Source of the DNA: Porphyromonas sp. COT-239 OH1446
GTDB lineage: Bacteria; Bacteroidota; Bacteroidia; Bacteroidales; Porphyromonadaceae
Length of the DNA: 64,000 bases
Assembly (NCBI RefSeq): GCF_000768875.1
Contig: NZ_JRAO01000010.1
Span: 1 to 64,000 of the forward strand
Direction: 5' to 3'
The notes beneath the pieces are model-generated. The model ran no database searches, had not been told where the DNA came from, and saw nothing but the letters and a program-made list of their open reading frames with translations. Made by a program: the position numbers and the translations under genes. Positions 5,185 through 57,102 of the stretch are shown in pieces; position 1 is the first letter of the stretch; every line of letters starts with the position of its first letter.

Positions 5185-5340
5185 GACCTTGTTGAGCCCC
5201 TAATAGGATCGTCGTTGAAGTGCAAGTAGGGCCTCGAGTGAAGTCCTACTTATATCTCCATCGAGGCATAAGTAGGATCGCAACAGAGACTCAAGTAGGA
5301 CTTCACCTGAGCTCCTACTTAAGTCTCTGTTGAGGAGCTT
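5185..5340. repeat. 23-bp intergenic repeat array A (mixed orientation)
   Basis: About six degenerate units of the 23-bp family, recognisable by AAGTAGG or CCTACTT cores. The AGG cores at 5205, 5228, 5274 and 5297 are 23, 46 and 23 bases apart, so the period is exact. Unlike the other arrays, units occur in both orientations. Units at 5281-5300 and 5313-5332 are inverted copies that form a 20-bp stem with one mismatch and a 12-base loop. A flipped stretch is bounded by GCCTCGA (5231-5237) and TCGAGGC (5261-5267). The array lies between the sulfatase relic and tRNA-Arg. Confidence 0.85.
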
Positions 5341-15582: not shown

Positions 15583-15675
15583 GCTCCTACTTAGACCTCG
15601 AGTGAAGTCCTATTTGGACCTCAACTGCGCTCCTACTTAAACCTCAACTGAGATCCTATCTAGGCCTTCGGTTGC
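15583..15675 (+). repeat. 23-bp intergenic repeat array B
   Basis: Four tandem units begin at 15583, 15606, 15629 and 15652; the first three are exactly 23 bases and the fourth 24. Typical unit: GCTCCTACTTAAACCTC plus six variable bases. The array starts 5 bases after the chlD stop codon (at its downstream side) and fills part of the gap before cbiZ. It interrupts an otherwise tightly packed operon. Confidence 0.85.
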
Positions 15676-25825: not shown

Positions 25826-25934
25826 ATTAATTCTTCTCCACGCTAACCGGCTCCCCAAAGAGGACTTAGAGGGGGGAAGACTACAGATCGCTACACCGAC
25901 TATCATATACTATGAAATGACGGGAGGTAGAGCC

Positions 25935-26049
25935 TCGGCGGAGATCTAAGTAGGATCACCATCGAGGCTCAAGTAGGATCTCAGCAGAGACTCAAATAGG
26001 CTCTCCATCGAGGTCCAAATAAGATCGAAATGAAAGCTCTAGATAGAGG
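25935..26049 (-). repeat. 23-bp intergenic repeat array C
   Basis: Five units start at 25935, 25958, 25981, 26004 and 26027, each 23 bases with decay toward the end. The core appears as AAGTAGGATC on the plus strand, so the array is in the opposite orientation to arrays B, D and F. It lies upstream of the promoter of the corrinoid operon and downstream of the tRNA-relic terminator. Confidence 0.85.
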
Positions 26050-34370: not shown

Positions 34371-36989
34371 CTACAGCGAGCGCAGCTGCTCGAGGCTCTG
34401 CTGGAGGGTCAGGATACGACTCTCAGCATCACTCTTCTTCTTACGCTCTAAAGCGATAACCTGCTCAGGGGCACGCTCTACGAAGCTCTGATTGCTCAGC
34501 TTCTTCTCTACCGAAGCGAGGAACTTACGCTGGTACTCGAGGTCAGCCTCTAGCTTAGCGACCTCCTCCTCTACATTGATCAACCCATCCATGGGTAGGG
34601 CGAACTCGTGCACTCCAACAACAAAGGCTACTGCACCATCGCTCTTGATCTCGCAACGCTTGATCTCGCTAAGGTTGGCGAGCTTGAGCAGCACGGCATC
34701 GAGCCGATCCGAGAAGTGAGGGTTCGCCTCTAGTAGGAGCTCTTCACGAGGAGATAGCTGCTTGCTGGCACGCACATTACGCACAGCACTAATGATCTGC
34801 AGGGCTTCGTCCATGGCTACAAGCAGGGCTTCATCGGCGAGGCCTGCGTGGGGCAGCTGCGTGATCATGAGGCTCTCGCCCTCACGACGCTGACGGAGTG
34901 CCTGCCAGAGTTCTTCGGTGATAAAGGGCATGAAAGGGTGTAGGTAGGCCAGTAGCAACTCGAAGAAATGCTCTGCCTCGGCTAGTGTCTTGGGATCAAT
35001 CGGCTCGCCGTAAGCAGGCTTGATCAGCTCGAGATAGCAGGAGGAGAAGTCATCTCGGATAAGTTTATAGAGCAGGGTAAGTGCTTCACTGAGGCGATAC
35101 TTGGAGAAGAGATCCTCCAGCTCTACAGCCGCACTCCAAAGGCGATGCTCAAACCACTTGCTTCCTAGACGTGCAGCCTCGGGCTGGGCGAGAGCCTCAT
35201 CCACCTGCCAACCCTTAACAAGACGGAAGGCATTCCAAACCTTATTGCAGAAGTTGCGTCCCTGCTCGCAGAGGGCCTCGTCGAAGAGGATGTCATTACC
35301 CGCAGGGGCAGACATCATCATCCCCATACGCACGCCATCGGCACCGAAGCGGTCGATCAACTCCAGCGGGTCAGGAGAGTTGCCAAGGCTCTTCGACATC
35401 TTGCGCCCAATCTTGTCTCGGACGATACCCGTGAGGTACACATTCTCGAAGGGCTTCTTTCCCCTGAACTCATAGCCTGCGATAATCATGCGGGCCACCC
35501 AAAAGAACAGAATATCTGGGGCTGTAACGAGGTCTGCAGTCGGATAATAGTAATCTAGCTCGGCATTCCCTTCGCCCAGGGCGGGGGCAAAGACCGTGAT
35601 CGGCCAAAGCCAAGAGGAGAACCAAGTATCCAACGCATCCTCCTCCTGACGCAAGTCTGCCATGACCAAAGAGGGGTCTTGCTGCTGTGCCAATCTGAGA
35701 GCCTCCTCGTCTGTCGCAGCCACTACGACTGCACCACTGGGCAGATAGTAGGCGGGGATGCGATGCCCCCACCAAAGCTGGCGACTGATACACCAGTCCT
35801 TGACATTCTCCATCCAGTGGCGGTAGGTCGCCTTGAACTTAGCGGGATGTAGCTTGATTTCGTCCTCGAGGACTGCCTCGAGGGCAGGCTTAGAGAGCTC
35901 GCTCATCTTGAGGAACCACTGCATCGACAGCTTGGGCTCGATGACAGCATTGGTACGCTCGCTGTGGCCGACCTTGTTCGTATAGTCCTCGACACGCTCC
36001 ATCAGCCCAGCCTCGATGAGGTCGACCTCGATCTGCTTGCGTACGGCGAAGCGATCCATCCCAGCATAGCGACCACCATGTTCATTGAGCGAACCATCAT
36101 CGTGAAATATATCTATGCTCTCGAGCTGGTGCTTCTCTCCGAGCATATGGTCATTGACATCGTGGGCAGGGGTTACCTTGAGGCAACCTGTCCCGAACTC
36201 GAGGTCTACATACTCGTCCTCTATGACGGGGATGCTGCGACCAACGATCGGGATGATGAGGCGACGCCCACGGAGGTCTCGATAACGCTCGTCATGAGGA
36301 TTGATGCACACGGCTGTATCACCCATAATGGTTTCGGGGCGTGTCGTGGCCACGACGACATAGCGATCCTCACCCTCTACATAGTAACGTAGATAGTAGA
36401 GCTTGCCCTGCTGCTCCTTGTAGATAACCTCCTCGTCGCTCAAGGCAGTCTTGGCCTCTGGGTCCCAATTCACCACCCGAACACCTCGATAGATAAGCCC
36501 CTTGTTGTAGAGATCGACGAAGACCTCGAGCACACTCTTACTGCGCTCGGCGTCCATGGTGAAGGCCGTACGAGCCCAGTCGCACGATGCGCCGAGCCTC
36601 TTGAGCTGCTCGAGGATGATGCCCCCGTGCTCATAGGTCCACTCCCATGCGTGCTCGAGGAATTGCTCTCGAGAGAGGTCGCTCTTCTTGACCCCCTGTT
36701 CGGCTAGGCGTGCCACGACCTTGGCTTCGGTAGCGATCGAGGCATGGTCTGTACCAGGCACCCAGCAGGCATTGAAGCCCGTCATGCGGGCACGGCGCAC
36801 GAGAATATCTTGGATTGTATTATTGAGCATATGCCCCATGTGCAGCACCCCCGTAACGTTGGGTGGGGGGATGACTACCGTGTAGGCTGGACGGCTATCA
36901 GGAGTAGAGTGAAAGAGGTTCTCTCTCATCCAGTATTCGTACCACTTACTCTCAACCGCCTCGGGGCTATATTTTGCTGCTAATTCCAT
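34371..36989 (-). CDS. valS: Valyl-tRNA synthetase
   Basis: This 872-residue class I synthetase charges tRNA-Val. The HIGH motif appears as [15 protein letters not shown] near residues 43-57, the editing (CP1) domain contains [17 protein letters not shown], and the KMSKS loop is [14 protein letters not shown] near residue 530. The C-terminal coiled coil ([19 protein letters not shown]) is typical of ValRS and separates it from LeuRS and IleRS. A TAACTTTG promoter element lies 30 bases upstream. Confidence 0.97.
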
Positions 36990-37200: not shown

Positions 37201-37361
37201 GATCCTATTTAGACCACCATCGAGATCCTATTTGAGTCTCACTTGCGATCCTACTTAGACCTCCATCGAGATCCTACTTGAGTCTCACTTGCGATCCTAC
37301 TTAGACCTCCATCGAAATCCTATTTGAGTCTCACTTGCGATCCTACTTAGACCTCCATCGA
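37201..37361 (+). repeat. 23-bp intergenic repeat array D (best preserved)
   Basis: Seven units, each exactly 23 bases, run without a gap. Two subtypes alternate: type 1 contains TCCTACTTAGACCTCCATCG and type 2 contains TCCTACTTGAGTCTCACTTG, in the order 1-2-1-2-1-2-1, so the true period is a 46-bp dimer. Units of the same type differ at only one or two positions. The array lies between the divergent valS and ftcD genes and is not part of any reading frame I can support. Confidence 0.95.
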
Positions 37362-37545
37362 GCTCTCTAGGCTTATTGTCCATCAAATACTCGAAAAGAA
37401 GCCCTCTCTAATTGACAATCACACCTTATTAGTATGAGTATATATCGAACTCAGATTTTTTAAGGGTTGGCTATTCAATTTAGCCATATCATTATTTTAT
37501 ATTGACAGCTCTCTGTATGATATGAGATAAATATGGTCTCCTAAG

Positions 37546-37693: not shown

Positions 37694-39397
37694 ATGGCAC
37701 GAGAAAAACAAATCGTAGAGTGCGTACCTAACATTAGCGAAGGACGCAACAAGGAAGTGATCAAGCAAGTTACCGACGAGATCGAGCGCGTCAAGGGGAT
37801 CAAGCTGCTGGATGTAGACCCAGGAGAGGCGACTAACCGCACGGTGATTACCTTCGTCGGCACACCCGATCAAGTGATGGAGGCTGCTTTCCGATGTGTC
37901 AAGAGGGCTTCTGAACTCATCGATATGCGTCATCATCACGGAGCACACCCACGCATGGGAGCGACAGATGTATGCCCATTCATCCCTGTATCGGGTATCA
38001 CACTAGAGGAGTGCGCTGCCCTCTCTCGTCAGCTTGCAGAGCGCATCGCAAGCGAACTTCACATCCCTTGCTACTGCTACGAGGCCGCTGCTAGACGTCC
38101 AGAGCGCAAGAACCTAGCTGTTTGTCGCAAGGGTGAATACGAGGGCTTGCCCGAGCGTATGACCATCGAGAGCGAAGCTCCCGACTTCGGTGCTCGCCCT
38201 TGGGATGAGGGTGTGGCTCGCACTGGCTGTACTGCTGTAGGTGCTCGAGACTTCCTCATCGCAGCGAACTACAACCTCAATACAACCTCTACACGTCGTG
38301 CCAATGCCATTGCATTCGATGTGCGTGAGAAGGGGCGTCCACAGCGCGAAGGAGGCTCTCCAGTAGGCAAGCCCATGCTGGACGCAGAGGGTAACCCTAT
38401 CATGATCCCTGGCACACTCCCTGGCACTAAGGCTATTGGCTGGTATATCGACGAATACGGAATCGCTCAGGTGTCTATGAATATCACAGATATGCACACC
38501 ACTCCTCTTCACGTCGCCTTCGACGAGGTGTGTCGCTGTGCTCAGAGGCGAGGCGTCCGCGTTACGGGTACCGAGATTGTGGGTCTTATCCCTAAGCGCA
38601 CGCTGATCGATGCAGGTAAGTACTTCCTCCGCAAGCAGAATAGATCTACAGGTATTCCCGAGGAGGATATTATCAAGATTGCAGTGAAGTCCATGGGTCT
38701 AGATGACCTCAAGGAATTCAATACCAGAGAGAAGGTTATTGAGTTCCTCCTAGAGGACGAGGAGCGCAAACCTATGCTCATTGACCTAACCGTGAAGGGC
38801 TTTGCCGATGAGACCTCTCGTGAGTCTCCTGCCCCTGGTGGTGGTACAATCTCCGCTTATATGGGAGCACTAGGTGCTGCCCTCGGCACTATGGTGGCGA
38901 ACCTCTCTAGCCACAAGGCTGGTTGGGATGCCCGCTGGGAAGAGTTCAGCCATTGGGCCGACAAGGGCCAGCAGCTACAGCATGAGCTGATGGTGCTCGT
39001 GGATGAAGATACCGAGGCCTTCAACCGCATCATGGAAGCCTTTGGCTTGCCTAAAGGTACTCCCGAGGAGAAGGCCGCGCGCACAGCAGCTATTCAGGAG
39101 GCGACCCTCTTCGCGACCCAGGTGCCTCTACACACGATGCAGGCATCGTACAAGGTCTTCGAGCTCTGCCGTGCAATGGCTGAGGAAGGTAACCCCAACA
39201 GCGTGTCGGATGCTGGCGTAGGGGTACTCGCTGCTCGTGCTGCCGTACTCGGTGCAGGGCTTAATGTGAAGATCAATGCCTCTGGTCTCAAGGATAGAGA
39301 GACTGCCGATAAGCTAGTCGCAGAAGCGAATGAACTCATTGCGAAGGCTAATGAGGAGGAGGCCGCTATCCTCAAGATCGTAGAGTCTAAGCTCTAA
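37694..39397 (+). CDS. ftcD: Glutamate formimidoyltransferase fused to formimidoyl-THF cyclodeaminase
   Basis: This bifunctional enzyme ends histidine breakdown: it moves the formimino group from N-formimino-glutamate to tetrahydrofolate, then releases ammonia to give 5,10-methenyl-THF. Residues 1 to about 330 are the transferase (VECVPNISEGRN at the start, MRHHHGAHPRMGATDVCPF with the catalytic His region, NYNLNTT). From about 345 the cyclodeaminase follows (TVKGFADETSRESPAPGGG, SAYMGALGAALGTMVANL). The 567-residue fusion resembles mammalian FTCD and is common in Bacteroidales. It is first in the hut cluster. A hairpin follows in the 173-base gap to hutU. Confidence 0.96.
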   Translation: MAREKQIVECVPNISEGRNKEVIKQVTDEIERVKGIKLLDVDPGEATNRTVITFVGTPDQVMEAAFRCVKRASELIDMRHHHGAHPRMGATDVCPFIPVSGITLEECAALSRQLAERIASELHIPCYCYEAAARRPERKNLAVCRKGEYEGLPERMTIESEAPDFGARPWDEGVARTGCTAVGARDFLIAANYNLNTTSTRRANAIAFDVREKGRPQREGGSPVGKPMLDAEGNPIMIPGTLPGTKAIGWYIDEYGIAQVSMNITDMHTTPLHVAFDEVCRCAQRRGVRVTGTEIVGLIPKRTLIDAGKYFLRKQNRSTGIPEEDIIKIAVKSMGLDDLKEFNTREKVIEFLLEDEERKPMLIDLTVKGFADETSRESPAPGGGTISAYMGALGAALGTMVANLSSHKAGWDARWEEFSHWADKGQQLQHELMVLVDEDTEAFNRIMEAFGLPKGTPEEKAARTAAIQEATLFATQVPLHTMQASYKVFELCRAMAEEGNPNSVSDAGVGVLAARAAVLGAGLNVKINASGLKDRETADKLVAEANELIAKANEEEAAILKIVESKL

Positions 39398-46783: not shown

Positions 46784-47392
46784 TTACAGTTTATACTCTT
46801 GGTAGACAAATCCCCATAGCTTCCGCAACTCTTGTATTGACAGTCGATCGATTAGGGCTCCCCTATAAGACAATCCAAAGTAGAGCGTCCGAAATAGTGC
46901 AATCAACTGGACACTATCAATATCTTGTCGGATCTCTCCCTTCTTCTTTGCCAATGCAACGACCTGACCCCATACTCCGATCTCCTGCTCCTCATGCTCT
47001 TGCATCTTTTCTGTCCATAAGGTATAATGCTCCTTGAGATATAGGACAAAACTCATAAAACTCGCCGCTGTAACAGATGCTCCTAAAGTCTCTGAGAAGT
47101 GAAGCATTCTTTCGCTGATCGTCCCGATATAGTGATCTAAAAAGTCTTTCAGCGGTGTCGCAGAGTCGGGAGACTCAATGAAGCATCTACCCTCTCTAAA
47201 AAAATCAAATACAAAGCGATCGGCTACTTGATTGAAGAGATCTTCCTTCCCCTTGAAGTGGTGAAACATCCCCCCACGTGTAATATTCGTTGCCTCGACC
47301 AAATCAGCAAAGCTGACCGCATCGTACCCCTTGGACAGGAATAGTCTAAAGGCTTCTTTCAGTATAATTTCCTTGTTGCTTGCTCGTGCCAT
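46784..47392 (-). CDS. TetR family transcriptional regulator
   Basis: This 202-residue repressor has the TetR helix-turn-helix near the start: KEIILKEAFRLFLSKGY, then VSFADLVEATNITRGGMFHH and FKGKEDLF. The C-terminal ligand-binding domain shows no recognisable motif. I start at 47392 (MARASNKEI); the longer in-frame start would place a perfect operator-like palindrome inside the coding region. It probably represses itself and the downstream barrel protein gene. The inducer is unknown. Confidence 0.9.
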   Translation of the reverse strand: MARASNKEIILKEAFRLFLSKGYDAVSFADLVEATNITRGGMFHHFKGKEDLFNQVADRFVFDFFREGRCFIESPDSATPLKDFLDHYIGTISERMLHFSETLGASVTAASFMSFVLYLKEHYTLWTEKMQEHEEQEIGVWGQVVALAKKKGEIRQDIDSVQLIALFRTLYFGLSYRGALIDRLSIQELRKLWGFVYQEYKL

Positions 47393-47424: not shown

Positions 47425-47678
47425 CTAATCTTAAGTGCAATATTACGAAAGGATATTTGATTAGGCAAATTTTGACACTTTTTTATCTTACTGTGTTTAA
47501 TTAGCCAGTAGGAGCTAAGCACTACCGCCGAGTGATACGGACGGGAGCGAGATCTAGAGGCTCAACCACTTCTCTACCCGCCTGGTGGCCGAGAGTGGCT
47601 CTAGGTGAGCACTGAGAGTCGATCAAGCATTCGATCGAGGTCTCGCGAGAGACAAGCAAGAGAGCTTCGAGTACAAAC

Positions 47679-47793
47679 TCTGTTGAGGTATAAGTAGGAT
47701 CGCAATGGAGATCTAAGTAGGATCACAACCGAGGTCTAAATAGGATCGCAATAGAGATCTAAGTAGAACCTCCATCGAGGCATAAGTAGTAGT
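47679..47793 (-). repeat. 23-bp intergenic repeat array E
   Basis: Five units start at 47679, 47702, 47725, 47748 and 47771, each exactly 23 bases; the core appears as AAGTAGGATC on the plus strand, the same orientation as array C. It lies in the 590-base gap between the divergent tetR and purB genes. Apart from the operator, the array and the purB promoter I see no gene in this gap. Confidence 0.88.
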
Positions 47794-56742: not shown

Positions 56743-56766
56743 ATAGGAGCTCGATGGAGCTCCTAT
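56743..56766. repeat. Head-to-head hairpin at the edge of repeat array F
   Basis: ATAGGAGCTC (56743-56752) and GAGCTCCTAT (56757-56766) are perfect inverted copies around GATG. The left arm is a partial repeat unit facing the first unit of array F. Confidence 0.75.
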
Positions 56767-56896
56767 TTAGACCTACATTGCGATCCTACTTGGGTCTCAC
56801 CTGCGATCCTATTTAGACTTCAGTTGTGATCCTACTTAGATCTCCATTGCGATCCTACCTATACCTCATCTCAGACCCTACTTAGACCTCCATGGA
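56759..56896 (+). repeat. 23-bp intergenic repeat array F
   Basis: Six units, each exactly 23 bases, start at 56759, 56782, 56805, 56828, 56851 and 56874. The second unit (with GGGTCTCACC) resembles subtype 2 of array D, the others subtype 1. The array lies in the 580-base gap between the divergent antiporter and LTA-synthase-type genes. Bases 56897-57102 show nothing that I recognise. Confidence 0.9.
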
Positions 56897-57102
56897 GGGG
56901 GCATAGGATCTTACGAGGGCTCTCGAGATGGGCTCTGCTGTCCCATGCGAGGATGCACCCAACCCAATAAATGCTCGAGGAAGTGCGGGGGGAGAGCTCC
57001 CAATCGAGATTTATTTGCAAAGTAGAGACTTATTCCTAAGAGCAAAAGACAAGAAGCCTAGATTTTATAGAAGATTTGCAACAAGAGATGGGCGAAAGTC
57101 TT

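Follow-up and report, generated by a model that had tools for sequence, protein, structure and literature searches.

The closest described system to the repeats considered here is BrickBuilt of P. gingivalis, in which a 23-nt repeat is arranged without spacers, always in intergenic DNA, with a variable number of units and with presence or absence differing between strains (PMC4596501, Klein et al. 2015). BrickBuilt occupies about 19 loci and carries leader and tail segments and IS5-like terminal inverted repeats, and the published substitutions recur at intervals within an array (PMC4596501). Its unit can also be read as an imperfect 19-bp palindrome (GAGA..TCTC) followed by 4 bp. A literature search for arrays in Porphyromonas or Bacteroidales that are regularly spaced or have 22/23-bp units returned nothing beyond BrickBuilt.

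SlmA, Noc and MatP each bind palindromic sites that are scattered round the chromosome and occur singly. The BIME and REP sequences of enterobacteria comprise hundreds of intergenic palindromic repeats, some of which gyrase binds, and their clusters contain alternating motifs; REPs lie mostly at the 3' ends of genes. The usual description of bacterial supercoil domains gives them a length of about 10 kb and no fixed boundary sequence, and divergent promoters are the meeting place of the negative supercoils generated on either side. In vitro, tandem lac operators occupied by LacI form long-lived supercoil barriers that persist for about two hours (PMC4725879).

The window analysed here is the first 64 kb of a contig (C2) in the draft assembly of Porphyromonas sp. 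COT-239 OH1446, a 1.96-Mb genome in 37 contigs, a state that may have affected array lengths. One of its intergenic regions contains array D, which resembles BrickBuilt in belonging to the same genus and in consisting of contiguous, spacerless 23-nt intergenic repeats. Array D is one of many evenly spaced arrays of pseudo-palindromic units in this genome, a point missed in the initial annotation.

Structure of array D

Array D (37203–37363, plus strand) lies between the divergent genes valS, encoding valyl-tRNA synthetase (34371–36989, minus strand), and ftcD, encoding formiminotransferase-cyclodeaminase (37694–39397, plus strand). Its limits are 37201 to 37361, or 37203 to 37363 when the units are read in the TCCTAYTT phase. 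Seven contiguous 23-bp units follow one another as types 1-2-1-2-1-2-1, type 1 being TCCTAYTTAGACCTCCATCGA and type 2 TCCTAYTTGAGTCTCACTTGCGA; the first 46-bp dimer (37203–37248, plus strand) consists of TCCTATTTAGACCACCATCGAGA (type 1) and TCCTATTTGAGTCTCACTTGCGA (type 2). Self-identity of the array is 60% at a lag of 23 bp (83/138) and 59% at 69 bp (54/92), and rises to 94% at both 46 bp (108/115) and 92 bp (65/69). Likewise, TRF favours 46 bp as the period (94% matches, score 300) over 23 bp (62%, score 109). The seven-unit alternation reported in the initial annotation is thus borne out by the unit listing, TRF and the lag identities. The type sequences given there hold except in unit 1, which reads AGACCACCATCG, one mismatch from the type 1 described, and the shared core is present, albeit with a C/T wobble (TCCTAYTT, with TCCTATTT in units 1, 2 and 6). 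There are no CRISPR-type unique spacers in D, as the 23-bp units abut and the entire unit is repetitive.

The ftcD gene beside array D shares 83–89% identity with homologues from Prevotella, and the matches in other Porphyromonas are split genes with about 45% identity; by sequence comparison, Prevotella or a relative is its probable donor.

Arrays across the genome

A census of 721 kb from five contigs, with genes called by our own script, identified 66 arrays, which extrapolates to about 180 in the genome. A matrix built from the genome's own units found 140 matches in the 330.9 kb of contig C2, all within 30 clusters and none isolated, as opposed to 0 in shuffled or reversed DNA, indicating that the arrays are not due to chance.

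Five further arrays lie in the window. Array A (5244–5335) has four units, two of them flipped (+,−,−,+); their starts are 33, 23 and 13 bp apart and all fit the 23-bp lattice. Array B (15585–15653, plus strand) has three units of types A, G and A. The four units of array C (25933–26024, minus strand) lie upstream of a minus-strand cobalamin riboswitch (RF00174, 25589–25812), which in turn precedes the gene of a periplasmic binding protein. Array E (47677–47791, minus strand; five units) separates a TetR-family gene on the minus strand from a purB-like gene on the plus strand. Array F (56761–56898, plus strand; six units) lies between a Na/H exchanger gene (minus strand) and a sulfatase gene (plus strand); a single type-2-like unit had been noted in it, and this unit was located at 56784 (GGGTCTCACCTGCGA).

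The TetR-family regulator (46784–47392), divergent from the purB-like gene across array E, has relatives in only half of the congeners. It was considered as a general array-binding protein and rejected, since no relative was found in the array-bearing genomes G006, G011, G013, G016 and G019 (relatives are designated here by G numbers). The same genome also contains a second lattice family, with a 22-bp pitch and the sequence ATTTTCTTGCGGAAGAAAATAT (C2:101360–101532), which resembles one in G013. Near-identical whole arrays recur within the genome, for example at 245 kb and 317 kb of C2.

Lattice, dyad and alternation of unit types

The units adhere to a fixed lattice irrespective of their orientation. 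Starts of same-strand neighbours are 23 bp apart in 178 of 184 cases, head-to-head starts 13 bp apart in 32 of 33, and tail-to-tail starts 33 bp apart in 14 of 17, the other three being 10 bp apart and representing one site read on both strands. Flips at 13 and 33 bp keep the 23-bp register (13+2d=23, 33−2d=23), which places a dyad at base 5. Indeed, the symmetry of the frequency matrix is best at base 5.0 among 46 possible centres (complementarity 0.53 versus a mean of 0.24). The agreement of register and matrix symmetry leads us to infer that a symmetric dimer binds at each unit. The fixed 23-bp lattice and the dyad at base 5 together give the constant helical register looked for in operator arrays that act as topological barriers.

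Positions 8–11 of the unit exist genome-wide as two haplotypes, ARAY in 94 and GRGT in 72 of 215 distinct units (8/10 pair), confirming that the two subtypes are older than array D. Alternation also extends to other loci, as the initial annotation had proposed to check: with D left out, position 8 alternates in 103 of 174 adjacent pairs (0.52 when units are permuted within arrays, P=0.0066), as does position 20 in 93 of 141 (0.56, P<0.0002).

Near-identical unit pairs, defined as those with at most 3 mismatches in 23 and counted within 67 chains, make up 5 of 180 pairs at lag 1 (2.8%, against a between-array baseline of 2.4%), 15 of 113 at lag 2 (13%) and 8 of 71 at lag 3 (11%). Neighbours within an array resemble each other no more than units of different arrays do. 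The elevation at lags 2 and 3 and not at lag 1 indicates growth by two or three units rather than strictly by dimers. The two-unit expansion claimed for D therefore fits D itself, where the dimers are near-identical, but does not serve as a general rule. These data support growth of D in two-unit steps and avoidance of like neighbours throughout the arrays. In relatives, dimer periodicity generally did not exceed that at lag 1, in a set of arrays whose selection favours lag 1. The need for two alternating contacts, offered in the initial annotation as another cause, gains from the genome-wide preference for unlike neighbours, but stability could also account for it; the avoidance may be due to either.

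Placement and spacing

All 65 placeable arrays are intergenic: 32 lie between divergent, 28 between co-directional and 5 between convergent genes. Among intergenic regions of at least 150 bp after subtraction of array length, 32 of 49 divergent regions carry an array versus 32 of 126 others (P=1.5e-6). The median distance from array to start codon is 225 bp.

Spacing was tested thoroughly in the window's own genome. The 61 gaps between arrays have a mean of 10.7 kb and a coefficient of variation (CV) of 0.465, against 0.82 under random intergenic placement, where the minimum in 5000 draws was 0.57. Only one gap is shorter than 5 kb, versus 18.6 expected, and it is a single array split by a 1.4-kb IS. 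This IS is inserted in the unit core of an array at 137.57–139.07 kb of contig C7, with the 8-bp repeat CTAAGTAG on either side. Nor does the spacing fit a context-matched null that keeps the divergent preference (mean CV 0.79, lowest 0.51), and 58% of array-free long intergenic regions lie less than 5 kb from an array, as compared to 1.6% of array-bearing ones (P=3e-9). Around the arrays there is thus an exclusion zone, about 5 kb in extent, that operon layout alone does not account for. Spacing in G016 is less even, with a CV of 0.74, a minimum of 1.7 kb and 4 gaps below 4 kb versus 14.9 expected.

Arrays in other Porphyromonas and Bacteroidales

Relatives were represented by one genome per species, sampled as 40–100-kb stretches. 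At least 13 other Porphyromonas species have arrays of 3–8 units on a 21–23-bp lattice, mostly palindromes and with different sequences, and the only self-match lags enriched across the genus in these samples are 21–23 bp and their doubles. The array palindromes include GAGGGATATCCCTC in G016, CTCCACGTGGAG in G001, which we take to be P. asaccharolytica DSM 20707, and ACCTACCGTAGGT in G013. Three array sequences of G011 are ACCAGTACTGGT, AGCTATATAGCT and AACGTATACGTT, and at least four palindromes occur in that genome. Others are ACGAGTTACCATAACTCGT in G002 and GATTTATATATAAATC and CCCCTAAGGGG in P. gingivalis (G006, presumably strain ATCC 33277), which also has lattice arrays of 22 and 23 bp distinct from BrickBuilt. 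One G016 array family gave 181 forward and 171 reverse matches over the complete chromosome, with 0 in the control. No arrays were found in the samples of G010, G007 and G017 and almost none in that of G014, absence from a 40-kb sample being weak evidence. Samples of 7–40 kb from each of ten other Bacteroidales families displayed no lag enrichment.

The unit sequence of the window's genome is absent from the other 25 genomes of the genus, the single match in G013 not being an array; it has only scattered, chance-like matches in 59 other genomes of the order and 0 in a wider contig database from which near records may have been left out. Conservation of array position between species was not significant (7/15 versus 11/30, P=0.54), and about one third of congeners carry an array in the region upstream of valS, near the base rate. 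At this locus, a comparison of filled and empty sites in other species revealed an array-bearing block of about 310 bp in G021 and G025 that is precisely absent from G001 and G023 and has TGA at both ends. In G019 and G001, near-identical whole arrays with the same unit order occur at several loci per 100 kb, which points to copying or gene conversion between loci.

A model for the arrays and its alternatives

The presence of arrays throughout the genome and of the same layout with different letters in relatives suggests chromosome-wide docking of a protein rather than a local oddity. We tentatively propose, as quite possible though short of probable, that the arrays are tandem operators for a dimeric protein and form barriers that divide the chromosome. 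The 23-bp unit would comprise an imperfect 19-bp palindrome (GAGATC-CTACTTA-GATCTC type), the site of a putative homodimeric DNA-binding protein, and a 4-bp spacer. At a pitch of 22–23 bp, about two helical turns, adjacent dimers could lie against each other and build a short nucleoprotein patch, and unlike neighbours (types 1 and 2) might be retained because identical ones are unstable or worse for packing. Some 180 such patches, one per approximately 11 kb and mainly between divergent promoters, would act as topological or architectural barriers that separate the supercoiling of adjacent transcription units. The arrays may extend by unequal exchange in steps of two or three units and share sequence through copying or gene conversion, while protein and palindrome would diverge together in each species. 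Several observations count against this model: the TetR-family candidate binder is absent from the majority of species with clear arrays, array position showed no significant conservation between species, spacing in G016 is less regular, and array sequence varies between species and also within one (G011), which a single essential protein does not predict. The sparseness or absence of arrays in the samples of G014, G017, G010 and G007 indicates that the system may be dispensable.

A somewhat unlikely alternative is that the arrays are non-autonomous mobile elements, that is, a generalised BrickBuilt of minisatellite-bearing miniature elements moved by a transposase, in which case the exclusion zone would reflect target immunity near existing copies and the intergenic placement selection against gene disruption. 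BrickBuilt is itself a precedent, being 23-nt, spacerless, intergenic and present or absent between strains (PMC4596501), and both the recurrence of near-identical whole arrays at different loci (G019, G001 and the window's genome) and the TGA-ended block upstream of valS fit movement of this kind. However, when arrays were aligned with one another (3056 alignments), similarity ended at the array edge, extending by a median of 0 bp (99th percentile 27 bp), and no leader, tail or terminal inverted repeat common to the arrays was found, similarity extending beyond 40 bp at only 15 of about 6100 array ends. IS ends resembling the unit were also looked for, and none of the IS elements examined has them. 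Mobility, moreover, leaves the lattice-preserving flips and the palindromic units particular to each species unexplained.

Alternatively, the arrays may be operators of a global regulator, one per species, acting upstream of promoters with graded tuning of many genes by unit number, in which case the spacing would simply follow from operon layout. Cooperative repressors typically bind palindromes on one face of the helix, and the arrays have such palindromes, a median position 225 bp upstream of start codons and a preference for divergent promoters. We nevertheless regard this reading as unlikely. Spacing is far more even than in the context-matched null that retains operon layout, five of the 65 arrays lie between convergent genes, and the flanking genes have no common function, the Pfam assignments of nine window genes (valS, FTCD, TetR, purB-type lyase, Na/H exchanger, sulfatase, ZnuA, CbiZ and periplasmic binding protein) being unrelated.

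It is very unlikely that the arrays are neutral minisatellites, expanding and contracting by recombination without function, with alternation arising from dimer-wise slippage alone. The excess of near-identical units at lags 2 and 3 fits unequal exchange, and unit number varies among arrays, but neighbours are less alike than permutation predicts, and even spacing, lattice-preserving inversions and one geometry with unrelated sequences across the genus are unexpected without selection. Least of all do we expect the arrays to act as RNA, with tandem hairpins serving as terminators, attenuators or a small RNA: folding of D is somewhat better than that of shuffled sequences on the minus strand (z −2.89) and some G019 units resemble a stem and T-run, but the plus strand has no excess structure (z −0.34), array D has no Rfam match, and positions 15 and 18 in the CTC-NATN-GAG loop display no paired covariation, GG and TT being common.

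For the genus as a whole, the operator model leads to a claim that is possible but that we hold with some doubt, namely that these arrays constitute an unrecognised architectural system of palindromic lattices with a 21–23-bp pitch, recurring roughly every 10 kb between transcription units that are mostly divergent, in which geometry is kept genus-wide but each species rewrites the sequence, probably through a fast-evolving family of DNA-binding proteins. If so, the array sites would be encoded in the sequence, countable and deletable at a spacing of about 10 kb, making the question of domain boundaries directly testable; the P. gingivalis BrickBuilt minisatellite would become one case of a broader pattern; and the arrays would offer a model of how a DNA site and its protein co-evolve. 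A further design constraint comes from the alternation rule, in that neighbouring units are kept unlike.

Comparison with known systems

Homology to BrickBuilt was considered and rejected: its consensus (AGAYCATARTATCCTCTCRTRTG) is abundant in G006, with 112 forward and 105 reverse matches, and scores no better than shuffles with the matrix of the window's units (P=0.115). The arrays described here also differ from BrickBuilt in occupying about 180 loci, in having flanks that are not conserved and in their quasi-regular spacing. Lac operator arrays are similar in being short tandem palindromic operators, there bound by a multivalent protein (PMC4725879), and illustrate how arrays might stop supercoils from diffusing, but they are engineered or local rather than a natural chromosome-wide set and provide a working analogy only. 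Whereas the sites of SlmA, Noc and MatP are single, those described here form lattices of 3–8 units. In contrast to BIME and REP sequences, the arrays of Porphyromonas combine a preference for divergent genes with a fixed lattice of 22–23 bp.
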